Shown here: positions 5,912 through 34,924 of the stretch, one piece after another | Layout of the letters: every line of letters begins with the position of its first letter | Position numbering within the stretch: the first letter of the stretch is position 1 | Source of the DNA: a virus | IMG/VR virus record: IMGVR_UViG_3300030085_002975 | Location: 1 to 35,926 of that record | Strand: one strand, 5' to 3' | Length of the DNA: 35,926 nucleotides | Program-made: the position numbers and the translations under genes | The notes under the pieces: model-generated | The model's database searches: none | Told to the model about the DNA's origin: nothing | The model's input: the letters and a program-made list of their open reading frames with translations, nothing else

Positions 5912-8900
5912 CTAGTTATTTAGTCTCTCTTCAAGACTAGAAACCTTATCACTAAGTTCTTTAATTGCTTCAATCAGAAGTGGAACAATCTTTTCATATT
6001 TAACAGTTATGTAATCATGACCAACTGGTGCTGGACATACAGCCTCTGGAAGAACTTTTTGAACTTCTTGTGCAGAAACACCAACATGAGATATTTCTGT
6101 ATCAAAACCAATAGTGGCGGCAGTTTCATTGAAGTTAAATGTAAATCCATTTAAGGAACAGACTTTATCAAGAGCATTGGTCAATCCAACCCTATTAGTC
6201 TTCAGGCGATCATCAGAAACAAAAGCAACAACATCACCTGTTACGAGTAACTCATGAGTACTCTCTTTGAATTTGATGTCATTATCTCTGTATATTTTAC
6301 TATACGTTCCATCAGGTGTTCCATTTCCAACCACACACATTGGATGTTCATCACCAGGTGCATCCATTGCTCTTCCAATCAGAACTGCATCTGCTTGAGT
6401 AGCAGTACCAGCAAAATTAGTTGCAGTAACCGTGTTACCGTTTAAAGTAATATTATCAACTTTTGCAGATCCAACTACAGTTAATGCTCCAGCAATATTA
6501 GTCTTATCTAAGGTAGTATCACCATCAACGTCTAATCCACCATCAACGTCTAAGTCACCACCAACATTTAAGTTCTTTTCAATACCAACACCACCTTCTA
6601 CAATAATCGCACCACTATCTTTACTATTAGATTGAGTAGTAGTATGGAAAATAGTATCAGAGAAGACTTCAACGTCTTCTGTCCCTTTGTTACCACTAAG
6701 TTTTAATGTACCAGATCTAGTTGTAATAAACTGGTTACCACTCGTAGAAGAACCATTATAATGACCGATTTGAATCATACCAATGTGTGCTTCGGCAAAC
6801 GCTTTGGATGTAGATCCAAGAGGAACACCATAACCACCGTTTACAGCAGCATCTACAGTAGGTAGAATACCACTGATAAGTGACGTTGAAGCATCTGAAT
6901 CACCTATCTCAATTTTGTTAGCGATATATGCTTCAGAGAATGGGAGTGATGAAGTACCAAGATATACATTCGCCGCACTACCACCACCAGGAGCACCATG
7001 AATTGCGGCAACCTTTGAACAAGATGTGTTACCTGGTTGTGCAGAACAAGTTTGATCAAACTGAATGGGACCAGGAGCATTTGCAACGACACCAGCAATA
7101 CCTGTTTCTAAGGTATTCATCTTGGCGACAAGTTTACCGCCTTGAGAGTGACCAAACAGATAAACATCTCCAATAGTTTTGCTACCACCCTGACCAGCAA
7201 TATATCCATTCAGAGAATCTTTAACCCATCCAACTGCTGCTCTAGTATATGCAAGGTTATCACCCATTAAGAATGTTGATGTCTCTGTACCAACACCAGG
7301 TAAATTATACTGATCTGAACTAGAAATATGGTCTTGAGGATATGCAGCAGAGAAGATAATCTTATCTCTTAGGTTAAGAGTATTTGGATTCAGGAAGTGA
7401 TTAAGTGAACCTTCTGCTGCGGATGCGATAGTTCCACTAGCAACAGTTCCATGGAATACAACTACAACATCAATTTGACCTGCGGATAAACCTGTAGGAA
7501 CATATAATTTACCCATAACTGGGTATGATGTACCGCCTACACTATGAGTTTGACCATCTGTTGGGACAATAGTAAACTGTTGATTTGCAATAGCACCAGA
7601 TGGATTAGTTCCACCAACGGCATTTCTGATCGCTGCCTGAAGTGTAGCACCATTTGCATTTTGATTTGTAAATGCCGCGTGTCCTCCAGTAGCAACTGTT
7701 GTGAGAGATGCTGTAGCATTAGCAGGAATTCCCTGAACAGAAGTTACATAAGATTGTAACCAAGCAGGTTGATTGCCAGCACCTGTACCATCGTCTAGTG
7801 CTTGAGTGAATAGTATTGGTGCATTATGTGTGTTAGTCCAACTTTCAAGACCGATTGTATAGTATATTGATGAACCACCACCACTAGCAGGAACAAGACC
7901 CGTTTGGAATTCAGACAGACCCTGAACATTCAATGTTCCATTCAAATCTGTATCATTACAAACGAACAACTTACCACCAATTGCAACACCACCTTCAACT
8001 CTAAGAGCAGCAGTTTGTGCTCCTTGACCACTACATGCGGTAGGATTGCTGTTTGACTTGATATAAACTCTTCCAGCAGTTCTGAGTGAATCTGGTACAC
8101 CATTCAGTACAAGAGTCTGTGCAAATCTAACATCACCAGTGAAAGTAACAGGACCATCAAACTGAGACAGAATCTGCTTAGACTTACCACCCTCAACCAG
8201 GATTCTTTCCTTAACAACAATCTCATCAAATACGACAGAGAGTCTGTTAGGATCTTCACCAGTTATGGTTGGAGTTGGAACGTCAAATGTCTTCTGCTCA
8301 CCAGACTGTGCAGAATACTTGGTGTTACCAATGTAGAAGTCACCATCACTGTCCATACCAGTGTAGAGAACAGTACCGCAAGCAGTTTCTTGAGACTGTG
8401 AGAGAAACTCTTCATTTTCGCTAAGAGTCTTAACCTGAACCTGTGGAAGACCTGTAGAATAGTTACCAGGACCATAACCAAGATATTCAAAGGTATGACC
8501 AGATGCACGAAGAATCGAAGGTCTACGAAGTTCGATTGGTGCTAATTTAATCTTCTTAATAAGAGTATTAGTTGTATGAGTTTCAATAATGGTTCCCATA
8601 GAACCACGAATAACTTGAATCTCATCAAAACCAGTTCCAGTCAAGGAACTGGATCTAACCCTCATAATTTCATTATTTACTTGGATGTAGCATCCAACTG
8701 GGAATCTACCTTCAATTTTGTTAGATGTTCCGTTTGGATTCTGTACTCTAAACTGACCATCACCAACTCCAATAGATTGAGCGGTATATAAAGTCTCGTT
8801 GTCGTAGAATGTGTGAAGTCTAGTTCCAATATTCTCGCCAAGATTATCAGCAGAAGCATTGTTATCAGACAATGCGTGCTTCATAAACTGAGTAGCACTA

Positions 8901-11900
8901 CTAATATTCTCTGTTGTGTTAATTGTGAATGTAATAGAAGTTGCACTAGTAACAAGATAATCACCTAAGTTCTCATTGCTTGCATCCAGAAGTCTTACTC
9001 TGTTTCCAGCAACAAGACCTACACCCTTTGTAGATGTAAATACATTTACAGTGCTTGATACTGTATGATTACTGATAGTACCAACTCTACCAACAACAGT
9101 TACATATTCACCAGCATTAATTTGTGGGTCATTAGCAGTCTTAACAATAGTGATTTGTCTCTTATTACTGGTTGCTGAAATCTTATAGTAACCACCAGTA
9201 GCAGTACCAATACCAGTTACCTGAACATAATCACTATTAGAGTCAGTAATATCAGCAGTATTTACAGTGATATTAGCAGAACCAGTTGTTCCTCCGATTT
9301 GTCTAGTATCAAAGTAAAGAATCTCACCATTGGTATATCCAGAACCTGATTCAATAATACTTACATTATCTACTTCGCCACTAGAGTTTACATTTACCTC
9401 AGCAGTAGCACCATCCCAAACAAGATTGAGTGCCTCAAGATTGCTAGGTGGTTGATTGTTATTATTGATAAGTCTTACATTATGGTAGACTCCAGGATTG
9501 TGTCCAGAACCACCAGAAAGTGATGTGAATGATGTAATACCAGATAATCCATGATCTTGAGATAATGTGAGAATAGGATTAACATTTGAACTTACTTCCG
9601 TAATCTCATTACCATAAGAATATGCCGTCATGAACTTGTCGGCAGTTTCTCTAGTAATACTTCTCTTCAGATCGTTTGTAACAACTTCTCCTAAAGGAGT
9701 TCTCTTAGCATAAGATACTGCTGCTGGTGGATTGGGATCAAAGTTATCTCTATCTAACTGTGGATAAAGATCGGTGATGTTTTGACTATACTTAATATCT
9801 CCAAATGTTCCGCTAGGTTGAGATATAGAATTACCAGCGTTCAGTACATACAGATAGAAAACACCATCTTGAATATCCTTGATGTAAGGAGTGATAACTT
9901 CTACACGATAAACATAGAGATTCTCCTGAGCATCATTTCTACTGAATGTAGGAATGGACTTATTTCTAATATTACTATCAAATGATGCATTTGCTGGAGC
10001 ATGAGTAATATCGAGAATATCTACATCACCAGTGGTAAATGTCTTAGAATCTGGAGTACTCTTAACTTTGAAAGAACCATTAAATCCAAAATTATCTTTG
10101 GCGGTTACATTATCAGAACTAGTTACATTTCTGATTACAACAGTATCATTAATTTTTAAGTCGTGATCTCTTTCAGCAACAAATCTAATAGTATTTGTTG
10201 GGTTGCTATAAGTACAAGTGCTTATAAATCTTGGATTACGATCAAAATCGTATTCTCCTGGTGTAATATTGTTGGAAGGATCTGCTGTAAGTGAAATTGT
10301 TGTTTTAGTAAAATCAGTAGCAGACCTTACATTATTACTATTAGAATCTTGTAAAATAAATCCACTTACAGGATCTCTAGCATTTTCAAGTTCCTTAGGA
10401 ACAACATAACGCAGTTTGTAAATCTTCTCGTCAATACTTCTTCCGTCTTCAATTCTCTTGAAGTATGAGATTTCAGAGTCTCCACTAATTCCTTCAAGAT
10501 GAGTTTTAAGAGTGCTACCAGATTTTACATAAACAAACCAGTTACCTCGTACATAATCAAACTGAATTGGATGACCAGTTTCACCAACTTTCTTATCAGA
10601 GATTCTACTTTCAACTCTAATTTGTTCACCAAGGAAACTTGTGATATAAATTGGATTTGCTGCATCAGCATTGGTCTTTGATGACGCAATCTGGAACTGA
10701 GTACCTGTTAGAACAATCCCATCAGTTCTAGATGAGTTTTTAGATGCATTGACGACATAATAAACTTTACCTTCTTCCAATCCTTCTGGAAGGTCGCCAG
10801 TTTCACTAAAAACACGAATTGATTCACCGTTTAGGAGATTGTGACCTCCTACAGTATTATAAATTGTTTGTCTTCCAGTAGTATCTGAAGCAGGAGTTGT
10901 AATAGTAACTCCATCATATACCTTTGCAGATGTATCAGTACCATTACATACATTAGACAAAGGAGTTGGAGTCTCGTTGGTCATCAAGACCTCAGCAAAA
11001 TACTCATTGCCGACAGGATCTCTGAGGTAGATTTTTTCACCTACTCTAGCACCAACTCTATATCCCTGAGAAATTGCTGGAGGTTCAATATCTAAGGAAG
11101 AATATCCTAACAAGTATATTCTTTGATCATCTGAAGCAGAAGTTATAAAGTCACCATCAAACTGAACCCATTCAATCTCTGCATCTATTGCATCAACAGA
11201 TCTAGGTGTAACAACTCCAGTTACAAATCCCTTGTCATCTTTGTTGAAAGCATCCTTCTTAAATCCATCGGAAGCCAGCGAGAATTGACCGAAGTTGGAG
11301 TTAGAGTTAGTGATGGAAGCGTCACCACCACTTAAACACTCAAAGTGCTTATGGAAACCAATAGCAAAGACCGAAACGATCTGAATGACCGCATCGTTGG
11401 ACATCTTAATGTGAGTCGTCTTCCAACCATCTCTATAAACAGCATCAGAATCTAAGTGGAAGACATTAGCATTATTGGTTGCTGAAGACTCGGAAGAAAG
11501 TTTGTCTCCAGTAACTTTTATGCTACCATTGAGACCACTACTCCACTGTCTGTTAGACTCATTATACTTAACGAACGCACGGTCATCTTTTTGAAGAGAT
11601 ACAGCAGTGAACTGTGCAACAACCATAGAACGGAATCCATCTGCTCTGGATCCATCGGCGTGCATACCATTCATGCCATAGACAGAACGGAGAGAGCAGT
11701 TAAAGATGTATGGAGATGCACCAGATACGGTATCAGTCTCAATAACAACTGCTGCACCAGCACCAGGAGCAAGACCAGCACCCTGACCAGCAGGAAGGTT
11801 AGATCTTACAAATGGGAGTGCATATGTGAATACAGTATCACTAATAACTTGAACAACTTTTGTAGAAATATTGTAGTCTTCTACGTTAATATTCTGAATC

Positions 11901-12862
11901 TTGATTGGAGTTCCAGAGTTTAGACCGTGAGGAGTCTGAGTTGTAACTGTAACAACAGTTCCAGGGGTTGCACCATCACCAGAAATAATATTGGTGATAG
12001 TAATTGGGTCAGCAGCAAATGCACCAACGATTTCAAATTCTGGGCGTTGCTTAGCAAAAGAACCAGGAGATGCTGGGAACTTCTGGTCAATTTCTCTACC
12101 AGATGCTCTGTTGAAAGCGTTACTAACCTTGCTATAGTACATATCAAGGTCGGTGAGTTGATATCCACCTGGGATATTCACACCATCAGCATACTCAAAA
12201 CAGGTAAGTTTGTGGTGAGAGAATGTGGGTTTGGAGCGATTATTGACTGAGAAATCTCTTGGATCGGTATATACTAATCCAGACTCATCACCATCAAAGA
12301 AAGTAAACTGCCAGAAGTAACATGCACCAGTGATTCTGAAGATTGCACTATTTGGTGCATCTAAATCTGTTGGGTTTGGAACATACTTTGGTCTAACCTT
12401 AGTCTTTCTTAAATCTAGACCAACAATCGAAGTACCACGAGGGATAATGATACCACCATTAATACTGTTAAACTTATACAGGATATTATCTTCCTGTGTA
12501 AGGTCAAAATTAGAATTGAGAGTAAGTGTTAACTCTGTCTGAGCATTAGTTTCGGAACCGCCAGGAGCAACAGAGATTGCATTTCCGTTTGATTCCTTGA
12601 TAGCATAACCAGGTCTATTATCAATCAGGTGCTCACCTGGAAACACAAGGATAGTAGTCTTTTCTACCAGGTCGTTATCATCACCTCTCAGATAAGAGAA
12701 TCTTGCTGACTCCAGCAATGCTCTCTGGATAGTCTTGAAGGGTTTAGTTAATGAATTACCCTGGTTTTCAATACCATCAGTAGAGTCAAGGTCGTTAGGG
12801 TTAACGTATAGAATGCGACCTTCGGCATTCTTGATAAAGTTCTCAAGCTTATTAAGAGGCAT
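5912..12862 (-). CDS. Giant tail fibre/tailspike-like protein with embedded hydrolase-like domain and S74 chaperone
   Basis: A 2316-aa protein. The N-terminus (LYVNPNDLDSTDG...SLTKPFKTIQRALLES, about 18-52) resembles the first turns of right-handed parallel beta-helix (pectate-lyase-like) tailspikes. The middle is long and beta-rich. About residues 1660-1965 look like a partial alpha/beta hydrolase: strand VVVVFHG (H1804-G1805), nucleophile elbow GHSQGG (S1906) and strand VAAIHG (H1955). Fibre repeats follow, then a C-terminal Peptidase_S74 intramolecular chaperone: SDDRLK with S2216 and K2221, GVSAQEVQKVLPEAV and a coiled-coil end. Family members trimerise the fibre and cleave themselves just before the serine. 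Start ATG 12862 follows an ATAAATA box. Likely a host-recognition fibre; the receptor is unknown. Confidence 0.85.
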   Translation of the reverse strand: MPLNKLENFIKNAEGRILYVNPNDLDSTDGIENQGNSLTKPFKTIQRALLESARFSYLRGDDNDLVEKTTILVFPGEHLIDNRPGYAIKESNGNAISVAPGGSETNAQTELTLTLNSNFDLTQEDNILYKFNSINGGIIIPRGTSIVGLDLRKTKVRPKYVPNPTDLDAPNSAIFRITGACYFWQFTFFDGDESGLVYTDPRDFSVNNRSKPTFSHHKLTCFEYADGVNIPGGYQLTDLDMYYSKVSNAFNRASGREIDQKFPASPGSFAKQRPEFEIVGAFAADPITITNIISGDGATPGTVVTVTTQTPHGLNSGTPIKIQNINVEDYNISTKVVQVISDTVFTYALPFVRSNLPAGQGAGLAPGAGAAVVIETDTVSGASPYIFNCSLRSVYGMNGMHADGSRADGFRSMVVAQFTAVSLQKDDRAFVKYNESNRQWSSGLNGSIKVTGDKLSSESSATNNANVFHLDSDAVYRDGWKTTHIKMSNDAVIQIVSVFAIGFHKHFECLSGGDASITNSNSNFGQFSLASDGFKKDAFNKDDKGFVTGVVTPRSVDAIDAEIEWVQFDGDFITSASDDQRIYLLGYSSLDIEPPAISQGYRVGARVGEKIYLRDPVGNEYFAEVLMTNETPTPLSNVCNGTDTSAKVYDGVTITTPASDTTGRQTIYNTVGGHNLLNGESIRVFSETGDLPEGLEEGKVYYVVNASKNSSRTDGIVLTGTQFQIASSKTNADAANPIYITSFLGEQIRVESRISDKKVGETGHPIQFDYVRGNWFVYVKSGSTLKTHLEGISGDSEISYFKRIEDGRSIDEKIYKLRYVVPKELENARDPVSGFILQDSNSNNVRSATDFTKTTISLTADPSNNITPGEYDFDRNPRFISTCTYSNPTNTIRFVAERDHDLKINDTVVIRNVTSSDNVTAKDNFGFNGSFKVKSTPDSKTFTTGDVDILDITHAPANASFDSNIRNKSIPTFSRNDAQENLYVYRVEVITPYIKDIQDGVFYLYVLNAGNSISQPSGTFGDIKYSQNITDLYPQLDRDNFDPNPPAAVSYAKRTPLGEVVTNDLKRSITRETADKFMTAYSYGNEITEVSSNVNPILTLSQDHGLSGITSFTSLSGGSGHNPGVYHNVRLINNNNQPPSNLEALNLVWDGATAEVNVNSSGEVDNVSIIESGSGYTNGEILYFDTRQIGGTTGSANITVNTADITDSNSDYVQVTGIGTATGGYYKISATSNKRQITIVKTANDPQINAGEYVTVVGRVGTISNHTVSSTVNVFTSTKGVGLVAGNRVRLLDASNENLGDYLVTSATSITFTINTTENISSATQFMKHALSDNNASADNLGENIGTRLHTFYDNETLYTAQSIGVGDGQFRVQNPNGTSNKIEGRFPVGCYIQVNNEIMRVRSSSLTGTGFDEIQVIRGSMGTIIETHTTNTLIKKIKLAPIELRRPSILRASGHTFEYLGYGPGNYSTGLPQVQVKTLSENEEFLSQSQETACGTVLYTGMDSDGDFYIGNTKYSAQSGEQKTFDVPTPTITGEDPNRLSVVFDEIVVKERILVEGGKSKQILSQFDGPVTFTGDVRFAQTLVLNGVPDSLRTAGRVYIKSNSNPTACSGQGAQTAALRVEGGVAIGGKLFVCNDTDLNGTLNVQGLSEFQTGLVPASGGGSSIYYTIGLESWTNTHNAPILFTQALDDGTGAGNQPAWLQSYVTSVQGIPANATASLTTVATGGHAAFTNQNANGATLQAAIRNAVGGTNPSGAIANQQFTIVPTDGQTHSVGGTSYPVMGKLYVPTGLSAGQIDVVVVFHGTVASGTIASAAEGSLNHFLNPNTLNLRDKIIFSAAYPQDHISSSDQYNLPGVGTETSTFLMGDNLAYTRAAVGWVKDSLNGYIAGQGGSKTIGDVYLFGHSQGGKLVAKMNTLETGIAGVVANAPGPIQFDQTCSAQPGNTSCSKVAAIHGAPGGGSAANVYLGTSSLPFSEAYIANKIEIGDSDASTSLISGILPTVDAAVNGGYGVPLGSTSKAFAEAHIGMIQIGHYNGSSTSGNQFITTRSGTLKLSGNKGTEDVEVFSDTIFHTTTQSNSKDSGAIIVEGGVGIEKNLNVGGDLDVDGGLDVDGDTTLDKTNIAGALTVVGSAKVDNITLNGNTVTATNFAGTATQADAVLIGRAMDAPGDEHPMCVVGNGTPDGTYSKIYRDNDIKFKESTHELLVTGDVVAFVSDDRLKTNRVGLTNALDKVCSLNGFTFNFNETAATIGFDTEISHVGVSAQEVQKVLPEAVCPAPVGHDYITVKYEKIVPLLIEAIKELSDKVSSLEERLNN
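5917..5923 (-). promoter_or_regulatory. T4-late-like promoter box CTAAATA upstream of the 679-aa fibre gene
   Basis: Minus-strand CTAAATAAC, about 22 nt before the ATG at 5895, embedded in the last codons of the giant fibre gene (encoding R-L-N-N-stop). T4 late promoters have a TATAAATA -10 and no -35; several genes in this window have the related CTAAATA or ATAAATA box at similar spacing. Confidence 0.5.
6215..6220 (-). other. Predicted S74 autocleavage site in the giant fibre
   Basis: Codons for V2215-S2216 of the 5912-12862 protein. In phage endosialidases and relatives the S74 Ser/Lys dyad, spaced by five residues, cleaves the chain before the serine. Here S2216 and K2221 in SDDRLK keep that spacing, so a C-terminal piece of about 101 aa is expected to be released after trimerisation. 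Confidence 0.7.
6967..7885 (-). other. Alpha/beta-hydrolase-like segment inside the giant fibre
   Basis: This covers roughly residues 1660-1965 of the fibre. Successive elements fit the hydrolase fold: VVVVFHG (oxyanion strand), IIFSAAYPQ, helix AYTRAAVGWVKDSL, DVYLFGHSQGGKLV (nucleophile elbow, S1906), GVVANAPGPI, then VAAIHGAPGGG, after which the sequence returns to fibre repeats. The usual Asp and His after the last strands are not seen; D1936 and H1955 are only candidates. C1939 and C1948 could form a disulfide. It may be an active receptor or polysaccharide esterase, or a binding domain derived from one. Confidence 0.65.
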
Positions 12863-14046: not shown

Positions 14047-14868
14047 TCAAAAAACCTCTGGATAGAATTCTTCATAATACCATCGGTATTCTTGTACTAT
14101 GTATTCTGTTATTTCTGAGTTTAATTCTGTATAAATTTGCTTTAAATTTTCGATTCTAGATTTTATTTTATGACATCCATAGGGTTGATATGGATTATCA
14201 TAAAATGGAATTTGATTTATATTATCAAAATCGTGATTGAATTGTTCTAAATCGAGAAAATCATATATTTGATTCATAGTATCTTGGGGGTCACTAATCA
14301 GATTTTCATATTTCACGAAAAAGATATTATTCTTACAAGATTTCTTCAAATCAATCAATTCTTTTAAAGAAACAATACCTTCCTTTAAAAACCACAAATT
14401 TAGAATATCATCAACTCTTTGTTTCAATAAATTTTCTTTCAAATCATAATTGAAGTTATTTCTATCCACAATATAAGAGTTATTGTGTATTTTTTCAAAA
14501 GAATTAACAACACCTCTTAAATCTCTAATAATACAAATCGATTTTGTATTTGGAATTATTTTATAAATGTAATCAAATTCTTGTAACCAGGTTCTTGATT
14601 TGTCCAGAAATATTTGATCTGGTGATTTCATAGAATCAATCCATGCTTTTGTACCAGACATGCAAAATTGTTTTGCACAATTATGATATTGTTGATATGG
14701 AATTTGCTGTTGTGATGTTGAATCTTTTAAAATTTCTTTTGTATTTGATATAAACAAAGATAAATCAGAATCCTGAGCAACGAAGAACATTGGATTTTGT
14801 GCCATCACATTCATAAGAAGTGTGGAACCAGATCTAGGTAGTGAAGTCAATGGTACAAGGTCTATCAT
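14047..14868 (-). CDS. PAPS-dependent sulfotransferase family protein
   Basis: A 273-aa protein. The 5'-phosphosulfate loop is LPRSGSTLL (P11-T16), and the 3'-phosphate block is CIIRDLRGVVNSF with R115 and S123, the spacing expected of sulfotransferases that move sulfate from PAPS to a hydroxyl or amine. The C-terminus (EEFYPEVF) has the aromatic ending seen in several bacterial members. There is no signal peptide, so it acts in the host cytoplasm. It is the last gene of a run starting at 17631, overlapping the upstream hydroxylase-like gene by an ATGA junction. The acceptor is unknown; fibre proteins, glycans and small metabolites are all possible. A nearby second sulfotransferase belongs to a different subfamily. 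Confidence 0.82.
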   Translation of the reverse strand: MIDLVPLTSLPRSGSTLLMNVMAQNPMFFVAQDSDLSLFISNTKEILKDSTSQQQIPYQQYHNCAKQFCMSGTKAWIDSMKSPDQIFLDKSRTWLQEFDYIYKIIPNTKSICIIRDLRGVVNSFEKIHNNSYIVDRNNFNYDLKENLLKQRVDDILNLWFLKEGIVSLKELIDLKKSCKNNIFFVKYENLISDPQDTMNQIYDFLDLEQFNHDFDNINQIPFYDNPYQPYGCHKIKSRIENLKQIYTELNSEITEYIVQEYRWYYEEFYPEVF

Positions 14869-15407
14869 CGTCTCAAGGTTGCTATGTATTTTGGTCTGTA
14901 GTCAATGATTAAATGTATTCTATCTTTATCGCTGCTATTTGCAACTGAATGATTTTTTTGATTATTAATTTCAACTGCAATCCCTTCCTCAAAGTTATAC
15001 TTTCTTTTTCCTATAGAAAATTCAACCCGACTGTTAGTTACTAAGGGTAAATGAATTCTATGACTTTGTTCAAATCCTTCCCCAATATCAGAATGTTCCT
15101 TTATCAAACCATTTGATTTTAGTAAAGAAAATTGTATATTATTTGAAGTCCCAGAACCATATGATAAGTGAAGGCAATCAATTAAATCTTTTGAGCATTG
15201 CATAAACATCTTTAAAAGATTTTCATCTAAAACTTTACCGTGTTCAACTATGAAACAACTATCACAATTTAAGAAATAAGAATCCCTATTATATTTTTTA
15301 TTGATAGAAAATTTTAGATAACTCAAAAAATGAATTAAGTCTGAAATATCAACTCTCCCCAGTCTTTTATAATATTCGGGTTTATTTGGTAGCATCTGAT
15401 ATATCAA
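14865..15407 (-). CDS. Aspartyl/asparaginyl beta-hydroxylase-like 2OG-Fe(II) oxygenase
   Basis: A 180-aa protein. The C-terminal half matches the Asp/Asn beta-hydroxylase fold: LIKEHSDIGEG (H105-S-D107), RIHLPLVTNSRVEFSIGKRKY, a strand leading to NNQKNHSVANSSDKDRIH (H153, R163) and LIIDYRP. Such enzymes hydroxylate Asp or Asn side chains of proteins, or free amino acids. A second in-frame ATG at 15395 (MLPNKPEYY) would shorten the overlap with the upstream sulfotransferase from 26 to 14 nt; neither has a good ribosome binding site. It sits between two sulfotransferases, suggesting sequential hydroxylation and sulfation of one target, which is inference only. Confidence 0.8.
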   Translation of the reverse strand: MIYQMLPNKPEYYKRLGRVDISDLIHFLSYLKFSINKKYNRDSYFLNCDSCFIVEHGKVLDENLLKMFMQCSKDLIDCLHLSYGSGTSNNIQFSLLKSNGLIKEHSDIGEGFEQSHRIHLPLVTNSRVEFSIGKRKYNFEEGIAVEINNQKNHSVANSSDKDRIHLIIDYRPKYIATLRR

Positions 15408-15930
15408 AAGAATATGAAAAATTTATGAAATCTTCAAAGTAAATATGCTTTACTAATTTTATTATATCATAAGTATATGAATCTATCATTTCTTCTTTAG
15501 AATATTTCCCAACTCTTAATTTTGGTAACTCAACTTCCAAATCCTCTTCAAGTTCATTAAATTTTTCAAACTTATATACCCTAGACAGTGAGCGTTTTCC
15601 AAAAGTATAAAATGACTGATTGTAAATCGTCATAGGTGTCTTTGATGTATTCTTTTTTATTCGAACTCGATGTAAGAAATCATAGAAAGATATATTATCA
15701 TCATTTTGTAAGACATAGTGCTTATAGTAACTATATGCCCTTGTATATGGATTTCTAACCATTGTAAAAGTAAAAACATTATTGTCGATAATGTTATTTT
15801 CTTCCATATCAAAATACGGATCATGTCCCATTGGCCAACTTCTTTTCCAATCATTGTGACCGACATGATTCAAAAATTTAGTTATTGATGTTCCACCAGT
15901 TTTTGGAATGTGTATGAATAATAATTTCAT
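15382..15930 (-). CDS. Carbohydrate-type (family 2) sulfotransferase
   Basis: A 182-aa protein from ATG 15930, which overlaps the previous stop in an ATGA junction; a TTG 6 nt further up is also open. FIHIPKTGGTSITKFL (P9-T14) is the PAPS 5'-phosphosulfate loop of the HIPKTGG type typical of membrane and carbohydrate sulfotransferases. TMVRNPYTRAYSYYKHY (R59, S67) is the 3'-phosphate motif. The protein is shorter than eukaryotic members and has no transmembrane anchor. It probably sulfates a glycan or a protein side chain in the cytoplasm. Its neighbours on both sides are 2OG-type proteins. Confidence 0.83.
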   Translation of the reverse strand: MKLLFIHIPKTGGTSITKFLNHVGHNDWKRSWPMGHDPYFDMEENNIIDNNVFTFTMVRNPYTRAYSYYKHYVLQNDDNISFYDFLHRVRIKKNTSKTPMTIYNQSFYTFGKRSLSRVYKFEKFNELEEDLEVELPKLRVGKYSKEEMIDSYTYDIIKLVKHIYFEDFINFSYSFDISDATK

Positions 15931-16604
15931 AAACAATTTCTAGATCTACGAATAGGCAAAGCATCTCCATTAATAGTTAAGTCATGAACAAAGAATACTA
16001 AAGTCAATCTATCTTCTCCTGTTCCAGAATAAAAAGATGGAACTCCATGATATTGACCAGATTCAAATAACACCAGTCTATTAAATACATTCTCGACTTT
16101 TACAGTTTCTACAAACTGACTATTGTTCTTTTCTAATGCTTCAGAGTACTCCTCATCAGATATGTATTGTCCTGTATAATATTTTCTCTTCTCTTCAACA
16201 GAGAACTTTAGATTATCACAAGTTGGTGCATAAATTGACGTTCCAGTATTTGGTGGAAAGTTTTTATTCAAATAAACAACACCAGAAAAAAATGAATCAT
16301 TATCTGGATGTATCCACCCTTGACTCATATTTTCATACTTAGTTTTCCCATAATCTGGAACTCTTTGAAATGTCGCTTCAACCGTCCAATCTACGGAACA
16401 ATTTCTATAATTGAAAAATAATGAGAATAGTTTTTTACAAAATACATTAAAAAGTTCTTGATTTAGTTCACTCAATTCAGTTGTTCTAAGACCTGGCCAA
16501 TCACCACCTTCTGCTTGAAAAAATTCTTGTTTCAAAGCATATTCTCTGATAATTTCTGGAGTCTCAAAGAAATTATCAAATATAGTCACTGGAAACTTTT
16601 TCAT
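15927..16604 (-). CDS. DUF6445-like 2OG-Fe(II) oxygenase-fold protein
   Basis: A 225-aa protein. It has H99-P-D101 (GWIHPDNDSFFSGVVYLN), the long strand-loop GTSIYAP, H186 (ESGQYHGVPS) and R199 (EDRLTLVFFVHD), giving a full facial triad plus 2OG arginine. The order and the IHPD/QYHG blocks resemble the DUF6445 family, whose substrates are not established. The N-terminus VTIFDNFFETPEIIREYALK is the usual helical lead-in. Its stop overlaps the start of the sulfotransferase by 4 nt, implying coupled translation with that enzyme. Confidence 0.78.
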   Translation of the reverse strand: MKKFPVTIFDNFFETPEIIREYALKQEFFQAEGGDWPGLRTTELSELNQELFNVFCKKLFSLFFNYRNCSVDWTVEATFQRVPDYGKTKYENMSQGWIHPDNDSFFSGVVYLNKNFPPNTGTSIYAPTCDNLKFSVEEKRKYYTGQYISDEEYSEALEKNNSQFVETVKVENVFNRLVLFESGQYHGVPSFYSGTGEDRLTLVFFVHDLTINGDALPIRRSRNCL

Positions 16605-17659: not shown

Positions 17660-19309
17660 TTATACACCCCAAGTTATAGTGACAAATCCCCCAGGAGCAA
17701 CTGTGATTGGATAAGAAGTATTTGGTGTAACTGCTACTGGATAAGATGTTGTTGGAACAGCAGCAAATCCTGGTTGTCCCTGAACCTCAGACCCATCAAT
17801 TCCATCAGAACCAACACCTCCGGCACCTCCCCCAAAACCTGGTTGTCCTGCGAATCCTGCACCTCCCCCAGAACCTGGATTTCCAGAATTTCCTGGATTT
17901 CCTGGACCACCAGAATTTCCATTAGCAGAGGAACCACCACCGCCACCGCTACCGCCAGCACCACCGCCGCCTCCGCCGCCTCCACCAGAACCACCTTGTC
18001 CAGCAACAGCGGGGGATCCAGCACCACCTTGCCCGCCAGTTCCACCTTGTCCACCAGGACCTCCTGGAGATCCACTATTACCTCCACCTGGTCCACCAGA
18101 ACCTCCTGGAGATCCACCTCCAGCATTTCCACCACCACCACCACTATTTGATGATCCTCCTCCACCAGGATTTCCTGCTTGACCATTACTTGGTGGACGA
18201 TTACCAGGACTTCCTGGTGATAATGATCCTCCTACATTAGCAGTTCCTCCAGAATTGTTATATCCTCTTGTACCAGCATTTCCTCTTGCACCACCCCCAC
18301 CAACACCAATTCCACCCTGACCAGCATTTCCATGTTCTCCACCAGAACCACCCTGACCACCATTTGCTGTTCCACCAGTTCCAGCATTTCCCGAATTACC
18401 AGGATTTCCTGGATTTCCTGGATTTCCTGCAGGACCACCCGCTCCATTATTTCCGGGATTTCCTGCAGTACCACCCGCTCCATTATTTCCATCTTGACCT
18501 GCGTTTCCTGTACCAGCAGCACCTCCAGCACCACCAGCAAATATGACACCGAAAGCGGAAGAAAAATCTCCAGATTGTCCTGCTATTCCAGTATTACCTG
18601 GTTGACCTAAATTTCTTCCAAATCCTGGTTGTCCAGTAACACCAGGTTGAGCTCCAGTTCCAGTAGGTCCAATTTGCCCTGGTTGACCAGATTGTCCTGC
18701 ATTGAAAGGTCCTGCTAAACCATTTGGTGCAGGACCTCCAGTACCATTATCACCAGATTCACCATTAGGAGCATTACCTGATGGTCGTCCGGGTTCACCA
18801 TTAATTGGGGTATTTGGTCTTGCCTTTCTACCATATCGACCATAGTCACCGACCGCACCACCGCCGCCACCACCATTAGGGGAAGGACTTCCTGGATTTC
18901 CTTGAGGGTATGAAGTAGTTCCATTCTGACCATATGATGGTCTGTAGGGGGGTCTTCCTCCGCCACCTCCACCACCACCTGATCCGCCACCGCCGCCACC
19001 GCCGCCTTTACCAATAGCAGGACTACCTGGTTGACCTGGATTTCCTTGACCAGCATTTCCACCAGCACCACCAAATCCTGAACCACCAGGATTTCCTGCT
19101 AATCCAAAAGTTCCTGGTTGCCCAACATTTCCTGCTAGTCCTCCTGTTCCACCTTGACCAGGTTGACCTGCATTTCCTTGTCCTCCAGCACCAGTAACAC
19201 TTACACTACTAATTCTAGATGGAACAGTCCATGTACCTGAAGAAGTAAACGTAATAGTTCCTTCAGTATCATAGAGTGGTGAACCTAAAATTTTCTTGTA
19301 AATTGACAT
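17660..19309 (-). CDS. Collagen-like, glycine-rich tail fibre protein
   Basis: A 549-aa protein. Residues 1-40 form a beta-structured base (TITFTSSGTWTVPSRISSVSVTGAGG) that matches fibre caps with the GTWTVP motif. Residues 40-510 are nearly all glycine-rich repeats, including Gly-Xaa-Yaa stretches with proline in the third position (GNPGNPGNPGNSGNAG, GQPGQIGPTGTGAQPG) and longer GGGGGGG tracts. The C-terminus (TSYPVAVTPNTSYPITVAPGGFVTITW) is a beta-strand cap. The gene is visibly richer in G and C than its neighbours. The triplets could form a collagen-like triple helix, which is stabilised by prolyl hydroxylation in animals; oxygenase genes lie on both sides. Whether it is modified is unknown. 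Confidence 0.82.
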   Translation of the reverse strand: MSIYKKILGSPLYDTEGTITFTSSGTWTVPSRISSVSVTGAGGQGNAGQPGQGGTGGLAGNVGQPGTFGLAGNPGGSGFGGAGGNAGQGNPGQPGSPAIGKGGGGGGGGSGGGGGGGGRPPYRPSYGQNGTTSYPQGNPGSPSPNGGGGGGAVGDYGRYGRKARPNTPINGEPGRPSGNAPNGESGDNGTGGPAPNGLAGPFNAGQSGQPGQIGPTGTGAQPGVTGQPGFGRNLGQPGNTGIAGQSGDFSSAFGVIFAGGAGGAAGTGNAGQDGNNGAGGTAGNPGNNGAGGPAGNPGNPGNPGNSGNAGTGGTANGGQGGSGGEHGNAGQGGIGVGGGGARGNAGTRGYNNSGGTANVGGSLSPGSPGNRPPSNGQAGNPGGGGSSNSGGGGGNAGGGSPGGSGGPGGGNSGSPGGPGGQGGTGGQGGAGSPAVAGQGGSGGGGGGGGGAGGSGGGGGSSANGNSGGPGNPGNSGNPGSGGGAGFAGQPGFGGGAGGVGSDGIDGSEVQGQPGFAAVPTTSYPVAVTPNTSYPITVAPGGFVTITWGV

Positions 19310-29731: not shown

Positions 29732-30169
29732 ATGTCATATAAGGGAAAATACAAACCATCTTACCCAAAGAAATATAAGGGTGATCCAACCAATATCATA
29801 TATCGTTCTCTTTGGGAACGCAAGTTTATGGTTTATTGTGATAAGAACGAAAATATATTAGAATGGCAGTCTGAAGAGTTTTGCATTCCATATCGCTCTC
29901 CTATTGATAATAGAATTCACAGATATTTTCCAGACTTCTTTATTAAGTACAGAGACACTAGCGGTAAAATCAAATCATCTCTTATCGAAGTCAAACCACT
30001 TCGACAGTGCTCTCCCCCACCCAAACCAAAGAGGCAGACTAAAAAATATCTGAATGAAGCATATGAGTATGCTAAAAACCAAGCAAAGTGGGAAGCAGCA
30101 AGAGAGTTCTGTAAAGACAGAATGTGGGAGTTCAAAGTAATGACGGAGAAAGAACTCGGTATCAACTAA
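29732..30169 (+). CDS. gp4: Head completion protein gp4 (PD-(D/E)XK nuclease-like)
   Basis: A 145-aa protein. The sequence SLWERKFMVYCDKNENILEWQSEEF (E29), HRYFPDFFIKY (P67-D68) and SLIEVKP (E86-K88) forms the E...PD...ExK catalytic set of the PD-(D/E)XK nuclease fold, related to TnsA endonucleases. T4 gp4 is a small head-completion protein acting on the packaged head before tail joining. It opens the short plus-strand block with a CTAAATA box 27 nt upstream. Its stop codon shares a base with the start of the next gene. Confidence 0.85.
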   Translation: MSYKGKYKPSYPKKYKGDPTNIIYRSLWERKFMVYCDKNENILEWQSEEFCIPYRSPIDNRIHRYFPDFFIKYRDTSGKIKSSLIEVKPLRQCSPPPKPKRQTKKYLNEAYEYAKNQAKWEAAREFCKDRMWEFKVMTEKELGIN

Positions 30170-30564: not shown

Positions 30565-31656
30565 ATGCCAGACTATAATTTTAATTACAGTGATCTTGGT
30601 AACTTAAATTATGATGCGGGTGTAGACCTTAAGTTTAAGAATATTGATGCTGCAAAGAGGGGTATATACGGCACACCGCCTCCGGCGGATGTGATGCGGT
30701 ATCCGCTGAAAGCGATTGAGAAGGAGCAGGATATGCTTCTTATTAGAATTTTTGATCAAGTACAGGCTGGGCAGATATTTGGTCTTCCTGGTGGAGATAA
30801 AAAAGAAGATACTACATCAAATCAAAAAAATATATCGATAGGTGCTCTCCCTGAGAAAAATAAAATTTTTAATAAACAGGGATCAACATATGATGGAGAA
30901 AAATCATTAAAGGCAAATGCAAGATATATTTGGTTACCTATCCCACAGCAAGTATCAGATTCTATCACAGTTGACTATTCAGAAGATACTTTGAATCCAC
31001 TTCAAGCTGCTGGATTACAATTGTCTGCCGAAACAATAAAAGAAGGTCCAATTGTAGCGGCAGGTAAAGTAATGAATTTACTAAAACAAGCATCTTCAAA
31101 TATTAACAATATAGATCCAAGAGCTTTAGATGCACTTCAAACAACATTAGCAGGGCAAGCTATCAATCAACTTGGTGCAAATGTTAATCCAACATCTTTA
31201 ATTACTCGTTCTTCTGGTCAGATTCTTCAGTCAAACTTAGAACTCTTGTTCAACAAGATGACTCTTAGATCTTTCCCATTCACTTTTGACTTTACACCAA
31301 GAGATCCTGATGAAGCAGAAATGGTGAAGAAGATTATTAGAACAATTAAAAAAGCAACAGTTCCAAAGAGAGGTGATGGTATATTCATCAACTCACCAGA
31401 CTTGTTCCAGTTCCAATATGTTGCTGGTGGTGAGAGACAGCATCCATTCCTGAACAGGTTCAAAGTTGGTGTTATTGAAAATGTCTCAGTTGACTACACT
31501 GCTTCTGGAACTTATGCGACATATAGTGATAGAACACCAGTTCATATTAGAATGACTCTTGCTTTCAAAGAGATCAATCCAATCTATATGGAAGATTATG
31601 ATGATGCTGCATCAGAAGGTGCAGAAGGTCCTGGTATTCACGGAGTCGGTTACTAA
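30565..31656 (+). CDS. gp48: Baseplate tail-tube cap gp48
   Basis: A 363-aa protein, close to T4 gp48 (364 aa). Features: ADVMRYPLKAIEKEQDMLLIRIFDQ near the N-terminus, then an Ala/Gln-rich helical middle with IWLPIPQQVSDSITVDYSEDTLNPLQAAGL. The C-terminal tube-fold part is FPFTFDFTPRDPDEAEMVKKIIRTIKKATVP...FQFQYVAGGERQHPFLNRFKVGVIENVSVDYT...HIRMTLAFKEINPIY. The cap joins the tail tube to the baseplate. It overlaps gp53 by one base. Confidence 0.85.
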   Translation: MPDYNFNYSDLGNLNYDAGVDLKFKNIDAAKRGIYGTPPPADVMRYPLKAIEKEQDMLLIRIFDQVQAGQIFGLPGGDKKEDTTSNQKNISIGALPEKNKIFNKQGSTYDGEKSLKANARYIWLPIPQQVSDSITVDYSEDTLNPLQAAGLQLSAETIKEGPIVAAGKVMNLLKQASSNINNIDPRALDALQTTLAGQAINQLGANVNPTSLITRSSGQILQSNLELLFNKMTLRSFPFTFDFTPRDPDEAEMVKKIIRTIKKATVPKRGDGIFINSPDLFQFQYVAGGERQHPFLNRFKVGVIENVSVDYTASGTYATYSDRTPVHIRMTLAFKEINPIYMEDYDDAASEGAEGPGIHGVGY

Positions 31657-32366
31657 TGTCCTACTTTAGAGAATTACCTGATATTCTATATCAGTCAAAC
31701 TTATTACATAAAGTTTCTTCTCAAGAATATATTCGAATCAAGAATATATTCCGCAGAGTTAAACTTAAAGATTGGATTCAAGATAATGCACGGTTTTTTA
31801 ATAAGTATACTATCCGTGATGGTGAAAGACCAGATACTATGGCGGAAAGATTATACGGTACTCCAGACCGTGATTGGATTATTGTATTAACTGCTGGAAT
31901 CACAAACATTAAAGACGAATGGCCACTGAGTAACTATGACCTGTATCGTTATGTTGAAAATAAGTATGGAAATGATTTAAATGCTATTCATCACTACGAA
32001 ACAATCGAAGTGAGAGATAACAGAGGTAGATTAATTTTACCTGGTGGTCAGAGAGTTGATCAAAATTTTACAATCCCTACACCTTATGACGCTTCTGAAA
32101 CTAACTTCTATGTTGGTGTAAGACCACAATCAGACAACATTAGTTATAAATCAGTTAATAGTGATATCAGTCCTATAACTGGTATTTCTAATTATGAATA
32201 TGAAACACAACTGAATGAAAACAAGAGACGCATTGAAGTAATGAAACCAAGTTATCTTCAACAGTTCTTGAATGATATGAGAGAGTTGATGAACTATAAA
32301 GAAAGTTCCCAGACAGTCAATAGTAAACTACTGACCACTGAGAACACTAGACTTATTGGACCATAA
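31656..32366 (+). CDS. gp53: Baseplate wedge subunit gp53
   Basis: A 236-aa protein (T4 gp53 is 196 aa). The N-terminus YFRELPDILYQSNLLHKVSSQEYIRIKNIFRRVKLKDWIQDN, then FNKYTIRDGERPDTMAERLYGTPDRDWIIVLTAGITNIKDEWPLS with a LysM-like turn, is typical of gp53. It closes the wedge that carries the baseplate. The last 39 nt overlap the convergent Mom-like gene end-to-end. Confidence 0.88.
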   Translation: MSYFRELPDILYQSNLLHKVSSQEYIRIKNIFRRVKLKDWIQDNARFFNKYTIRDGERPDTMAERLYGTPDRDWIIVLTAGITNIKDEWPLSNYDLYRYVENKYGNDLNAIHHYETIEVRDNRGRLILPGGQRVDQNFTIPTPYDASETNFYVGVRPQSDNISYKSVNSDISPITGISNYEYETQLNENKRRIEVMKPSYLQQFLNDMRELMNYKESSQTVNSKLLTTENTRLIGP

Positions 32367-32945
32367 GAGTTTTAGACTCTTATCGAAAATCATAACGTAT
32401 CGGTGTTTGCGAGACCTATCTCTCCATTCACCTTCGGAGTCACCAATCTTTCCTCTTGAGTGTTTGGTACCATCTGCAAAGAAGAAATCTTTTTTTGCAT
32501 CTGATAGACCACAATACTTAAAGTTACAAGCGCGATAGATTGTGCCACCGTGATACTCGCTATCAGCGTATGAAATGATTGCCCTGACTTTTGTTTCTTT
32601 TCTAAGTTGCTTAATTGCTCTAGCAACGAACCAAGAAGTAATGTTGTACTCTTCTTGCTGAGTATCAGGGTGGATACAAAGTCGTGAAAGTTCAAATAAC
32701 CCTTCTTGTTCATTCCTCTCTAGACCAAATGCTCCTTTTGCAATTTCAGGAACAGGGAGACCTGTAAAAATACAGACTCCCTGAATGCCTCCAATATTCA
32801 GAGGACAGAATTCGTTGTTTTTATAAAGACCGTAATTATAACCAGATTTAAAAGTTTTAGATATATCCTTTAGATAATGAAACCGCAGAAGTAACTCTGC
32901 GGCTTCGGATTTATTCACACGGTCAATGTGGTAATCAGATTTCAC
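32328..32945 (-). CDS. Mom-like GNAT-fold DNA-modification protein
   Basis: A 205-aa protein, probably starting at GTG 32945. RFHYLKDISK (H23-Y24), YNYGLYKNNE, GVCIFTGLPVP, LFELSRLCIHP (85-93), SWFVARAIKQLRK and ISYADSEYHGGTIYRACNFKYCGLSDAKKDFF form the pattern of phage Mom proteins, a GNAT-like family. Mu Mom adds a carbamoylmethyl (momyl) group to adenine to block host restriction. Here it lies between gp53 and gp32, outside any structural run. It overlaps gp53 by 39 nt in convergent direction. The family call is strong, the reaction is inferred from the family. Confidence 0.75.
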   Translation of the reverse strand: MKSDYHIDRVNKSEAAELLLRFHYLKDISKTFKSGYNYGLYKNNEFCPLNIGGIQGVCIFTGLPVPEIAKGAFGLERNEQEGLFELSRLCIHPDTQQEEYNITSWFVARAIKQLRKETKVRAIISYADSEYHGGTIYRACNFKYCGLSDAKKDFFFADGTKHSRGKIGDSEGEWRDRSRKHRYVMIFDKSLKLLWSNKSSVLSGQ

Positions 32946-32956
32946 TTGAATAAGAG

Positions 32957-32991
32957 ATTAAAATATGCCGCCACCACTAATAGGGTGAGGC
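32957..32991 (-). terminator. Probable intrinsic terminator after gp32
   Basis: Minus-strand GCCTCACC...GGTGGCGGC (CACC/GGTG stem extended by GCC/GGC with a bulge) followed by ATATTTTAA. It lies between the gp32 stop (33007) and the Mom-like start (32945), where a terminator would limit read-through. Confidence 0.55.
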
Positions 32992-33006
32992 AGATCTGAT
33001 TGTACT

Positions 33007-33939
33007 TCACTCCTCAGCAAGACGGGCAAAGTAGGACAGTGCATCGTCATCATCACTAGAAGAAGAACTAGATGCAACGATGTCTTCTGCGTTGAAGTCA
33101 CCAGGGGTAGAAGTTACTGCAGGTGCAGTACCACGGTTGGAAGCACGGAAGTCTTCTTCTGCCTCAACGGTTTCCTGATCTTGGAACTTGGGAGTACCCT
33201 TGTTACCAAGAACATAGTCCAGGCGGGTCTTCAGTGCATCATAGTCTTTGAACTGGTCGGCAGCAACAAATTCTTGGAGAGAAGATTGCTTCTTCCAGAT
33301 TGCTTCCATTGCGTCATCGTCGTCCAAGAGTGCGCTTTGTGCAGCGAACTCAGAAGAATCGTAGTTACGATAACCTGCAACGTTCTTTGCCTTCAGTTTG
33401 AAGTTAGCACCCTGCCAGAAGTCAAAGGGATCAATTGCTTCCTCATCCTCAAACTCAGGTTGCATAGCAGCAGTGAGTTTGTCGAAGATCTTTTTGCCGT
33501 ACTTGTACAGCATCACACGACCTTCATTCTGAGGGTTAGCAGGATCTTTCACAACATAGATGTTGCTGATGTAAGTCAGTTTACGCTTCTGCTTACGAGC
33601 AGCATCTTTACCTGCATCAGTGCCGTTATTCCACAGCATAGAGTTGTACTCAGACACAGGATCTTTTTGACCCAGAGTAGTCAGAGAGTTTTCGATGTAC
33701 CAACCACCAGGACCTTGGAAGGCGTGGGAGTACAGTTTCACGAAGGGAAGATCTTCGCTATCGGGTGCAGGCAGGAAACGGATAACGGCATAACCATTGC
33801 CGCTCTTATCACACTCCAGTTTCCAGAAACGGTCATCGGCGGAACCGCCACCGTTGTTGTTCATCTTTTCGACTTCCTTGACCAGTTTTTGAGTCAGGGA
33901 GCCCAGCTTGGATTGCTTTTTAAGGTCTGCGAAAGACAT
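33007..33939 (-). CDS. gp32: Single-stranded DNA-binding protein gp32
   Basis: A 310-aa protein, near T4 gp32 (301 aa). The N-terminal LAST-like block SKLGSLTQKLVKEVEK allows cooperative binding. The OB-fold core aligns with T4 (FWKLECDKSGNGYAVIRFLPAPDSEDLPFVKLYSHAF, GGWYIENSLTTLGQKDP, LTYISNIYVVKDPANPQNEGRVMLYKYGKKIFDKL). The acidic C-terminus (SSSDDDDALSYFARLAEE) recruits replication partners. The T4 zinc-binding His/Cys cluster is absent: only one cysteine remains in the core. Strong early promoter at 33985-34013. Replication gp59 and transcription gp33 lie just upstream. Confidence 0.95.
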   Translation of the reverse strand: MSFADLKKQSKLGSLTQKLVKEVEKMNNNGGGSADDRFWKLECDKSGNGYAVIRFLPAPDSEDLPFVKLYSHAFQGPGGWYIENSLTTLGQKDPVSEYNSMLWNNGTDAGKDAARKQKRKLTYISNIYVVKDPANPQNEGRVMLYKYGKKIFDKLTAAMQPEFEDEEAIDPFDFWQGANFKLKAKNVAGYRNYDSSEFAAQSALLDDDDAMEAIWKKQSSLQEFVAADQFKDYDALKTRLDYVLGNKGTPKFQDQETVEAEEDFRASNRGTAPAVTSTPGDFNAEDIVASSSSSSDDDDALSYFARLAEE

Positions 33940-33984: not shown

Positions 33985-34013
33985 AGTATAACAAGAAAAC
34001 CGTCAGGCGTCAA
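33985..34013 (-). promoter_or_regulatory. Early sigma70 promoter for gp32
   Basis: Minus-strand -35 TTGACG (34013-34008), exactly 17 nt, -10 TATACT (33990-33985). Transcription would start near 33978, leaving about 38 nt of leader before ATG 33939. The -35 overlaps the end of the DUF1825 gene. It has the same TTGACG box and spacing as the tRNA operon promoter. Confidence 0.85.
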
Positions 34014-34335
34014 CGTATTTTTTGAGTGCCTCGATGGTTGCATTCATACTATTGAAAAGCATGGTCATATCGGTTTCAGGGGGGAAACCCATCATCGCGA
34101 CTGACTTGCGGAGATTCTCTTTCATCTCAACCGCTTTAGGGTCGTCTGAAAGAGATAACCTAGTATACATCACTCTTTGCTTTTCTAGCAAGTCCTGAAG
34201 TATTTCGATGTGCTCAAGTTTTTCTTCTTTAGGCATCATACCGAAACCAAAGAGAGATCCGTAGATCTTCTCTTGAAGATTATTAATTTCAGTCAATTCC
34301 TCCTGAATAATTTCGGAGTCGAAAAAATCACTCAT
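34003..34335 (-). CDS. DUF1825 protein (cyanobacterium-derived)
   Basis: A 110-aa protein from ATG 34335 (MSDFFDSEIIQEELTEI); a longer frame into gp59 exists but starts before the family's FFDSEI N-terminus. FDSEIIQEELTEINNLQEK, EEKLEHIEILQDLLEKQRVMYTRLSLSDDPKAVEMKENLRK and MTMLFNSMNATIEALKKY match the DUF1825 family, which is essentially cyanobacterial. Two long helices with a short N-terminal linker are expected. The function is not established. It sits between gp59 and gp32, overlapping gp59 by 8 nt, so it is expressed with replication genes. This strongly suggests capture from a host. Confidence 0.82.
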   Translation of the reverse strand: MSDFFDSEIIQEELTEINNLQEKIYGSLFGFGMMPKEEKLEHIEILQDLLEKQRVMYTRLSLSDDPKAVEMKENLRKSVAMMGFPPETDMTMLFNSMNATIEALKKYVDA

Positions 34336-34924
34336 GCACCAATTCCCGCAATATCTTTTTGTATTTGAATACATCAATATTTATGAAGGGACTATATTTT
34401 TTCAATTTAAGACTGACGGTTTCCCACACAGGATCAGTCAACTTCTTATCGAAATTTTTTGAAAATCCCAAAACTTTGTCCCAGATCACGAAGTTTTCTA
34501 GTGAAAGTTTCTGTCCTAGATACGCTTTGAAGATTTTTGGGTGACCCTTGGAACAATCGAAGAGACTCTCCAATTCGTTCTCCGATAGTAATTCGTTGCT
34601 TTGTTCTTTGAACAAGTAAGTCGAACTCTGCCGTCGTTTCATCCACTCGGCGTAAGTCCTTTCTCCAGAATTGATAATCTCTCCAATCCATAGGTTCTGT
34701 GGGTTCTCGGCGGCAGAAAAATTAGATACCAAAAAATCAACAACCTCTTCATCGGAGTATTTGCGAGAGGTCTTCTCGAACCAGTACTTGTCTTTCCTCT
34801 TATTGAAAGAGGTCACACTAGCACGGGTTTTTGCTCCGTATTTGAAGAAATCGTATTTGGGATTTGTGAAATGATTTTTTAGTGACAAATAATGTTGATA
34901 AGTTTCAAAAGGAGTCACGATCAT
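34328..34924 (-). CDS. gp59: DNA helicase loader gp59
   Basis: A 198-aa protein (T4 gp59 is 217 aa). FETYQHYLSLKNHFTNPKYDFFKYGAKTRASVTSFNKRKDKYWFEKTSRKYSDEEVVDFLVSNF...LWIGEI shares the T4 pattern closely, and the C-terminus (KLTDPVWETVSLKLKKYSPFINIDVFKYKKI) aligns with the end of T4 gp59. It loads the gp41 helicase at forks and D-loops and interacts with gp32, encoded nearby. It overlaps the downstream DUF1825 gene by 8 nt and lies 1 nt after the oxygenase stop. No promoter is seen immediately before it. Confidence 0.88.
   Translation of the reverse strand: MIVTPFETYQHYLSLKNHFTNPKYDFFKYGAKTRASVTSFNKRKDKYWFEKTSRKYSDEEVVDFLVSNFSAAENPQNLWIGEIINSGERTYAEWMKRRQSSTYLFKEQSNELLSENELESLFDCSKGHPKIFKAYLGQKLSLENFVIWDKVLGFSKNFDKKLTDPVWETVSLKLKKYSPFINIDVFKYKKILRELVHE

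Follow-up and report, generated by a model that had tools for sequence, protein, structure and literature searches.

The window analysed here is a stretch of 35,926 nucleotides of viral DNA from IMG/VR record IMGVR_UViG_3300030085_002975. On its minus strand it contains a 205-aa open reading frame (32328-32945; GTG start at 32945, stop codon at 32328-32330) that a preliminary description had proposed as a Mom-like DNA-modification gene in a cyanophage, and the ORF was found there as described. This gene, mom, lies downstream of and co-directional with the gene for the ssDNA-binding protein gp32 (33007-33939, minus strand; Pfam PF08804), and is convergent with the gene for the baseplate wedge protein gp53 (31656-32366, plus strand; PF11246), with overlapping 3′ ends. 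Between gp32 and mom there is a micro-ORF encoding a 22-aa peptide with a single membrane span (VKYNQICLTLLVVAAYFNLLFK; 32942-33010, minus strand), whose start overlaps the gp32 stop and whose stop overlaps the mom start. The same-strand replication cluster also includes the genes for a DUF1825 protein (34003-34377, minus strand; PF08855, obtained by hmmscan on 34006-34377) and for the gp59 helicase loader (34328-34924, minus strand; PF08993/PF08994).

DNA of the mom region matched 594 records, mostly of cyanophages (375 Synechococcus, 61 Cyanophage and 24 Prochlorococcus, by first word), and also including 77 Salmonella and others. Photosystem reaction-centre genes were detected on one of 34 records, most of which are fragments (G026, mom-positive), and also on G045, whose locus L122 has mom; none was present in the window's own record. 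The gp32, gp53, gp59 and DUF1825 neighbours, the predominance of cyanophages among the nearest named genomes and the photosystem genes on two mom-positive contigs support well, in an indirect manner, that the window virus is a T4-like cyanophage. A TnsA-like match at 29732-30166 was considered as a sign of a transposon and rejected, since this ORF corresponds to a head-closure protein.

Mom (PF25680) was the only Pfam family matched by the ORF (E 2e-25). The curated cut-off is 27.1 bits and the score was 90.1 bits, which answers in the affirmative the profile-HMM check that had been suggested for this gene. The HY, ELSRLC and SYADSEYHGGTIYRACNFKYCGL blocks on which the original assignment was based are all in the protein (residues 23-24, 85-90 and 125-147, respectively), and the resemblance to Mom goes far beyond chance, as indicated by the Pfam score and by the match to PHROG 1384, 'Mom-like DNA modification protein' (E 4.5e-33). 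In a six-frame search, PF25680 scored 86.3 bits in the window's own record and matched none of 14 control genomes. A profile search also retrieved the crystal structure of Mu Mom (PDB 8BV8; E 4e-25); a profile was needed for this, as single-sequence phmmer gave no match to the mom-like protein in the PDB. Membership of the ORF in the Mom family is thus nearly certain. Matches to PHROGs 559 and 3339, annotated as HNH/homing endonuclease, were discarded as evidence of a nuclease, and were read instead as probable Mom-type domains fused in those families.

Scanning of IMG/VR with the mom-like protein yielded 245 relatives among 248 pattern matches, and the best 80 of these 245 were analysed as loci. 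At least 591 candidate stretches of this Mom lineage, which is common in uncultured aquatic viruses, were obtained in a second scan. The mom gene occupied the slot between gp32 and gp53 in 78 of the 80 loci, some of them showing just one of the two flanking genes because the contig ends, and some carrying another ORF between gp32 and mom. The two exceptions (L077 and L079) were contigs with a gp5 lysozyme gene. A gp32-based sample of 80 loci, in which L132 and L042 are one contig, comprised 55 loci without mom, 19 with mom, 4 without gp53 and 2 of other types. On a gp32 tree (FastTree, 136 rows) the mom label changed 14 times, at least 7 of them forced by starred branches. The 231-kb record G034, which contains locus L126, encodes a gp32 92% identical to that of the window and shows two photosystem reaction-centre matches, and no Mom match was found in the whole record. 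Altogether, mom comes and goes in the gp32-gp53 slot of uncultured marine and freshwater relatives. None of 50,697 phage records searched by tblastn reached 60% identity to the mom-like protein; the closest named match in the phage collection was Roseobacter phage CRP-212 (53% identity), and three Synechococcus records were matched.

The boundary 5′ of mom was classified in the 80 loci as a GTGA-type overlap with the gp32 stop (26 loci), the 22-aa membrane-span ORF (21 loci, the type found in the window), an 80-aa ORF (14 loci) or another arrangement (16 loci), and was cut in the remaining 3. The stop-start overlaps of the GTGA-type and 22-aa ORF boundaries suggest that translation can pass from gene to gene, by which mom would be coupled to the gene preceding it. 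In 14 distinct sequences of the micro-ORF, variation at the three codon positions was 4/0/17, and the encoded protein hardly varied, being identical in 19 of 22 sequences, as most nucleotide changes fell on the third position of a codon. Relatives of the micro-ORF were observed directly after gp32 in mom-less loci and, weakly, in cultured cyanophages (E 0.04-1). The idea of an RNA gene in the gp32-mom spacers was dropped, the spacers being the 22-aa ORF with this pattern of variation or the 80-aa ORF.

Codons 15-24 of mom (AAELLLRFHY; 32874-32903, minus strand) are frozen at synonymous sites over a hairpin and its U-rich 3′ flank. The hairpin (32883-32902, minus strand) consists of CCGCAGA-GTTACT-TCTGCGG, with seven perfect pairs and a stem that outer GAAG/TTTC pairing can extend. 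The 65 distinct coding sequences of the window and the 80 scan loci all use TTA for L18, CTT for L19 and CTG for L20, and 64 of the 65 use GCA for A16, CGG for R21 and TAT for Y24. The loci of the scan were picked by peptides elsewhere in mom, so their choice did not favour this stretch. A tree was built from codons 41-190 of 94 of the 97 distinct mom genes. On it, the six 4/6-fold codons of the stretch underwent 0, 0, 1, 0, 0 and 0 synonymous changes, and 67 codons of this kind elsewhere averaged 10.4; the lowest 8-codon window of synonymous change had a value of 0.5, and the next non-overlapping one a value of 4.8. An artefactual codon freeze, caused by recent common descent or by the recent spread of one gene copy, is extremely improbable in spite of the many near-copies among the loci (65 distinct coding sequences of 81), given the number of changes in other codons of the same tree and the presence of compensatory changes in the stem.

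The seven pairs formed in all 210 cells of an alignment of 30 hairpin-bearing genes. Compensatory changes were present at two of these pairs, and the other five never vary, so they are uninformative on pairing. The compensatory changes accompany amino-acid changes: a freshwater clade has the stem CTTCAGA/TCTGAAG together with A16S and R21K, and L141 has CTGCAGA/TCTGCAG together with R21Q. Synonymous shuffles as stable as the native hairpin numbered 0 of 2000 for the window, L077 and L096, and 3 of 2000 for L057. Among 48-nt stretches of the window's mom, the one at codons 50-55 is more stable than any other (−22.3 vs −20.4 kcal/mol for the hairpin), and what distinguishes the hairpin from the rest of the gene is the synonymous freeze, not top stability. 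These data show that codons 15-24 of mom encode an RNA hairpin held by selection independently of the protein. The hairpin was absent in all 17 more distant Moms inspected, and a search of Rfam yielded nothing at gathering level, the one chance match (E 0.39) being far below its gathering score.

The hairpin shares with intrinsic (Rho-independent) terminators and attenuators a stable, GC-rich and perfect stem under selection, a short loop, a T-rich 3′ flank and its location at the end of gp32. Unlike them, it is embedded in the 5′ coding part of the gene that follows, its protein residues co-vary with the stem, and its tail, TTTCATTAT, is broken by C and A instead of forming an uninterrupted U-tract. 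A simple terminator scan of the window did not list the in-mom hairpin, because the outer GAAG/TTTC pairs absorb the first Ts and the tail is a weak U-tract.

The comparison of 5′ regions covered 97 distinct mom genes (the window, 80 IMG/VR loci, 19 loci of the gp32-based sample and loci of the second scan, after de-duplication), of which 92 reach into the end of gp32. The final detector assigned the hairpin only to 79 of these 92, an upstream terminator only to 11, both to 2 (L041, and L057, which represents its freshwater clade) and neither to 0; the number of terminators called in shuffled gaps was 6 of 960. The first detector had given 78 with the hairpin only, 10 with the terminator only, 3 with both and 1 with neither. 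It was revised once, allowing longer loops and requiring more GC pairs and Ts, after clear stems with long loops had come to light in L149 and in the freshwater clade; after this revision L047 and L096 left the class with both elements. Exclusivity between hairpin and terminator is partly forced, since overlapping genes leave no room for an upstream terminator, and the informative side of the pattern is the upstream terminator in all 11 hairpin-less genes. In these genes a GC stem and a T-run run straight into the mom ATG, and 9 of the 11 have an extended −10 motif, TGNTATAAT. The hairpin/terminator label switched 4 times on a careful mom tree (3-5 in bootstrap, with at least 3 forced by starred branches). 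L077 and L079 keep the hairpin although mom is not adjacent to gp32, an observation that, like the two genes with both elements, counts against the terminator reading. Furthermore, in the gp32-mom gaps of L120, L155, L041 and L149 a TATAAT with a TG extension was observed directly before a terminator stem that runs into the mom ATG; this motif is possibly a promoter of mom's own, mainly in hairpin-less alleles.

Additional evidence came from loci that have lost mom. A stem followed by a T-run was seen in many mom-empty sites, and 2 of the 57 sites scored as such (L098 and L126) retain a piece of mom with the hairpin, with remnant scores of 59 and 53, respectively, against shuffle maxima of 26 and 25. 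A scan with the hairpin pattern gave at least 113 new loci, of which, among the matches listed, 106 had it inside mom and 7 outside. These 7 were three of the L098 type and three of the L126 type, each set including the contig already seen, plus L442, in which the stem is retained with a different loop. The hairpin thus persists at the 3′ end of gp32, between gp32 and gp53, in three types of mom-deletion scar. The stem leads into TTTTTTT and TTTTATTTT in L098 and L442, the look expected of a gp32 terminator after loss of the rest of mom. In the L126 type the tail is even poorer than that of the window, which speaks against a terminator.

The best reading of the hairpin would be that of a terminator or attenuator of gp32 that the mom ORF has absorbed. 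Alternatively, it might bind a protein, control translation or, as a 3′ end, stabilise the mRNA. Such a control has a precedent in Mu mom, subjected to post-transcriptional control by Com through an mRNA hairpin (PMC6483171), and both the weak U-tract and the near-freezing of the loop bases and of the TTTCATTAT flank would be consistent with it. On the other hand, the loop changes in L096 and L442 while the stem stays, the hairpin-less genes carry a canonical terminator in front of the ATG, and the deletion scars keep the hairpin where mom is gone. In addition, the Com family (PF10122) matched 0 of 9 records, all of them fragments, in a search that did find Com in the Mu positive control. We consider this alternative unlikely and prefer the terminator reading, which the natural alternatives (terminator inside mom, terminator before mom, and mom lost with the hairpin kept) make directly testable.

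Modification of the N6 of adenine in DNA is the activity expected of a Mom protein, and Mu Mom binds acyl-CoA and iron. The AlphaFold2 model of the mom-like protein had a mean pLDDT of 86.8 (43-row alignment), and its best PDB match was 8BV8, the S124A form of Mu Mom, in Foldseek (E 9.9e-11) as well as in VIA-align (Z 18.0, rmsd 3.2, 174 aligned residues), which supports a predicted Mu Mom fold. An alignment of 17 sequences including Mu Mom contained 14 invariant columns (H23, Y24, G56, E85, L86, R88, S125, A127, D128, G134, Y137, A139, N141 and G146). Residues S104, H23, Y24, R88 and D128 align with S124, H58, Y59, R111 and D149 of Mu Mom. At position 104, 15 of the 17 sequences have S and 2 have T, a second set of 43 splits into 40 with S and 3 with T, and all 65 close relatives have S. 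Among the aligned residues, only S124 is tied to activity loss, through the S124A mutant, called 'inactive mutant S124A' in the 8BV8 title. Profile, fold and invariant residues together give strong support to the placement of the protein in the Mom family. The median dN/dS among mom relatives was 0.096 (841 of 2080 pairs with 0.05<dS<1; 65 distinct coding sequences of 81), indicating that the gene is under purifying selection. The protein could also be a GNAT relative that no longer modifies DNA and acts on another substrate, such as protein or RNA, as its identity to Mu Mom is just 21% and the fold is common to many GNATs. Mu Mom is nevertheless the best fold match by a clear margin (the next GNAT had a Z of 13.8), and the protein retains the residues that are invariant in the family, among them the serine replaced by alanine in the mutant called inactive, which leaves this possibility with little probability. 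By analogy with Mu Mom, adenine modification by the mom-like protein is likely.

Regarding the purpose of such a modification, Mom could protect phage DNA from a phage-coded nuclease, in a self vs non-self marking, and not from host restriction. In one freshwater clade (L138, with L057-L060, L065, L066 and L068) an endonuclease-like ORF (L138:2250-2730; PHROG 3322, E 3.8e-36) was observed between gp32 and mom, just upstream of the latter, with a terminator and an extended −10 motif ahead of it; in addition, the Mom match of Synechococcus phage DSL-LC03 also touches a feature annotated as a type II restriction endonuclease, and Mom domains of jumbo phages are often fused to nucleases (PMC7824862). 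Only gp32, gp53 and small ORFs adjoin mom in most loci, however, and in the window the gp32-gp53 interval contains no nuclease gene, so we regard protection from a phage nuclease as quite improbable.

The explanation that we favour instead is that a T4-like cyanophage encodes here, in an accessory gene of the gp32-gp53 slot downstream of gp32, a GNAT enzyme of the Mom family that is functional. Judging from its family, this enzyme would most likely act like Mu Mom, modifying adenines in the DNA of the phage and thereby shielding it from cleavage by host restriction enzymes. The in-mom hairpin would most likely represent the 3′ end of gp32 transcripts, with mom being made only by read-through, and it probably limits the amount of enzyme made. 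We hold this joint explanation, adenine-modifying enzyme and transcript end, to be fairly probable. More speculatively, mom output may follow translation of the gp32 operon, because ribosomes arriving through the stop-start overlap would melt the hairpin. A gp32 terminator absorbed into mom could then operate as a translation-coupled switch, in which melting of the hairpin by ribosomes lets RNA polymerase enter mom, and transcription otherwise stops at about codon 24; we put forward this switch as a tentative and somewhat doubtful proposal. If true, a DNA-disguising enzyme would be metered by translation of a replication protein operon, and residues of the Mom protein would be constrained by RNA pairing. 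The locus provides a clean case of a 5′ coding region apparently under a double constraint, from protein and from a transcription signal. Should the enzyme be active, T4-like cyanophages would have in base hypermodification an accessory trait that is swapped at one fixed slot and is relevant to cyanobacterial restriction.

Mu Mom (PF25680; 8BV8) and the window protein share the family profile, the GNAT-type fold and the invariant residues including the S124 equivalent. Their genetic organisation differs: a com-mom operon in Mu, and a mom gene with an in-ORF terminator-like hairpin in the gp32 operon of a T4-like phage in the window. Mom-family proteins also exist in Synechococcus phages S-SSM7, S-SSM6a and DSL-LC03. 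The S-SSM7 gene is annotated as Mom-like, so that a Mom gene in a cyanophage is not without precedent. The family and the cyanophage context proposed in the preliminary description are supported; what is new here is the hairpin inside mom, which that description had overlooked. S-SSM7 Mom is 26.7% identical to the window protein and occupies a different genome place, adjoining tRNAs and psbA, and Moms of its group are closer to those of Enterococcus siphophages (61%) than to the window Mom. In the portions of the open-licence literature on phage and cyanophage Mom and on in-ORF terminators that were covered, no description of an in-ORF terminator arrangement at mom was found.

The Mom of CRP-212, the closest named relative, differs from that of the window in being an in-frame fusion with a MazG pyrophosphohydrolase domain (L084:4947-5927), the annotated start lying inside the Mom part. 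This fusion was matched over its whole 310 aa in nine viral contigs and over residues 1-288 in a tenth (L176-L185), and two of these close relatives of CRP-212 (L176 and L180) lack the hairpin at the corresponding codons.

Other genes of the window's minus strand were also of interest. Two sulfotransferase-like proteins, one Asp/Arg hydroxylase-like protein and one DUF6445, weakly 2OG-oxygenase-like protein are encoded in a cluster at 14047-16604, and a 549-aa glycine-rich repeat protein (17660-19309) had no PHROG match. Finally, a 2316-aa structural-type protein is encoded at 5912-12862, and a stretch in its C-terminal third, with a GHSQGG motif, reads like what we take to be a hydrolase.
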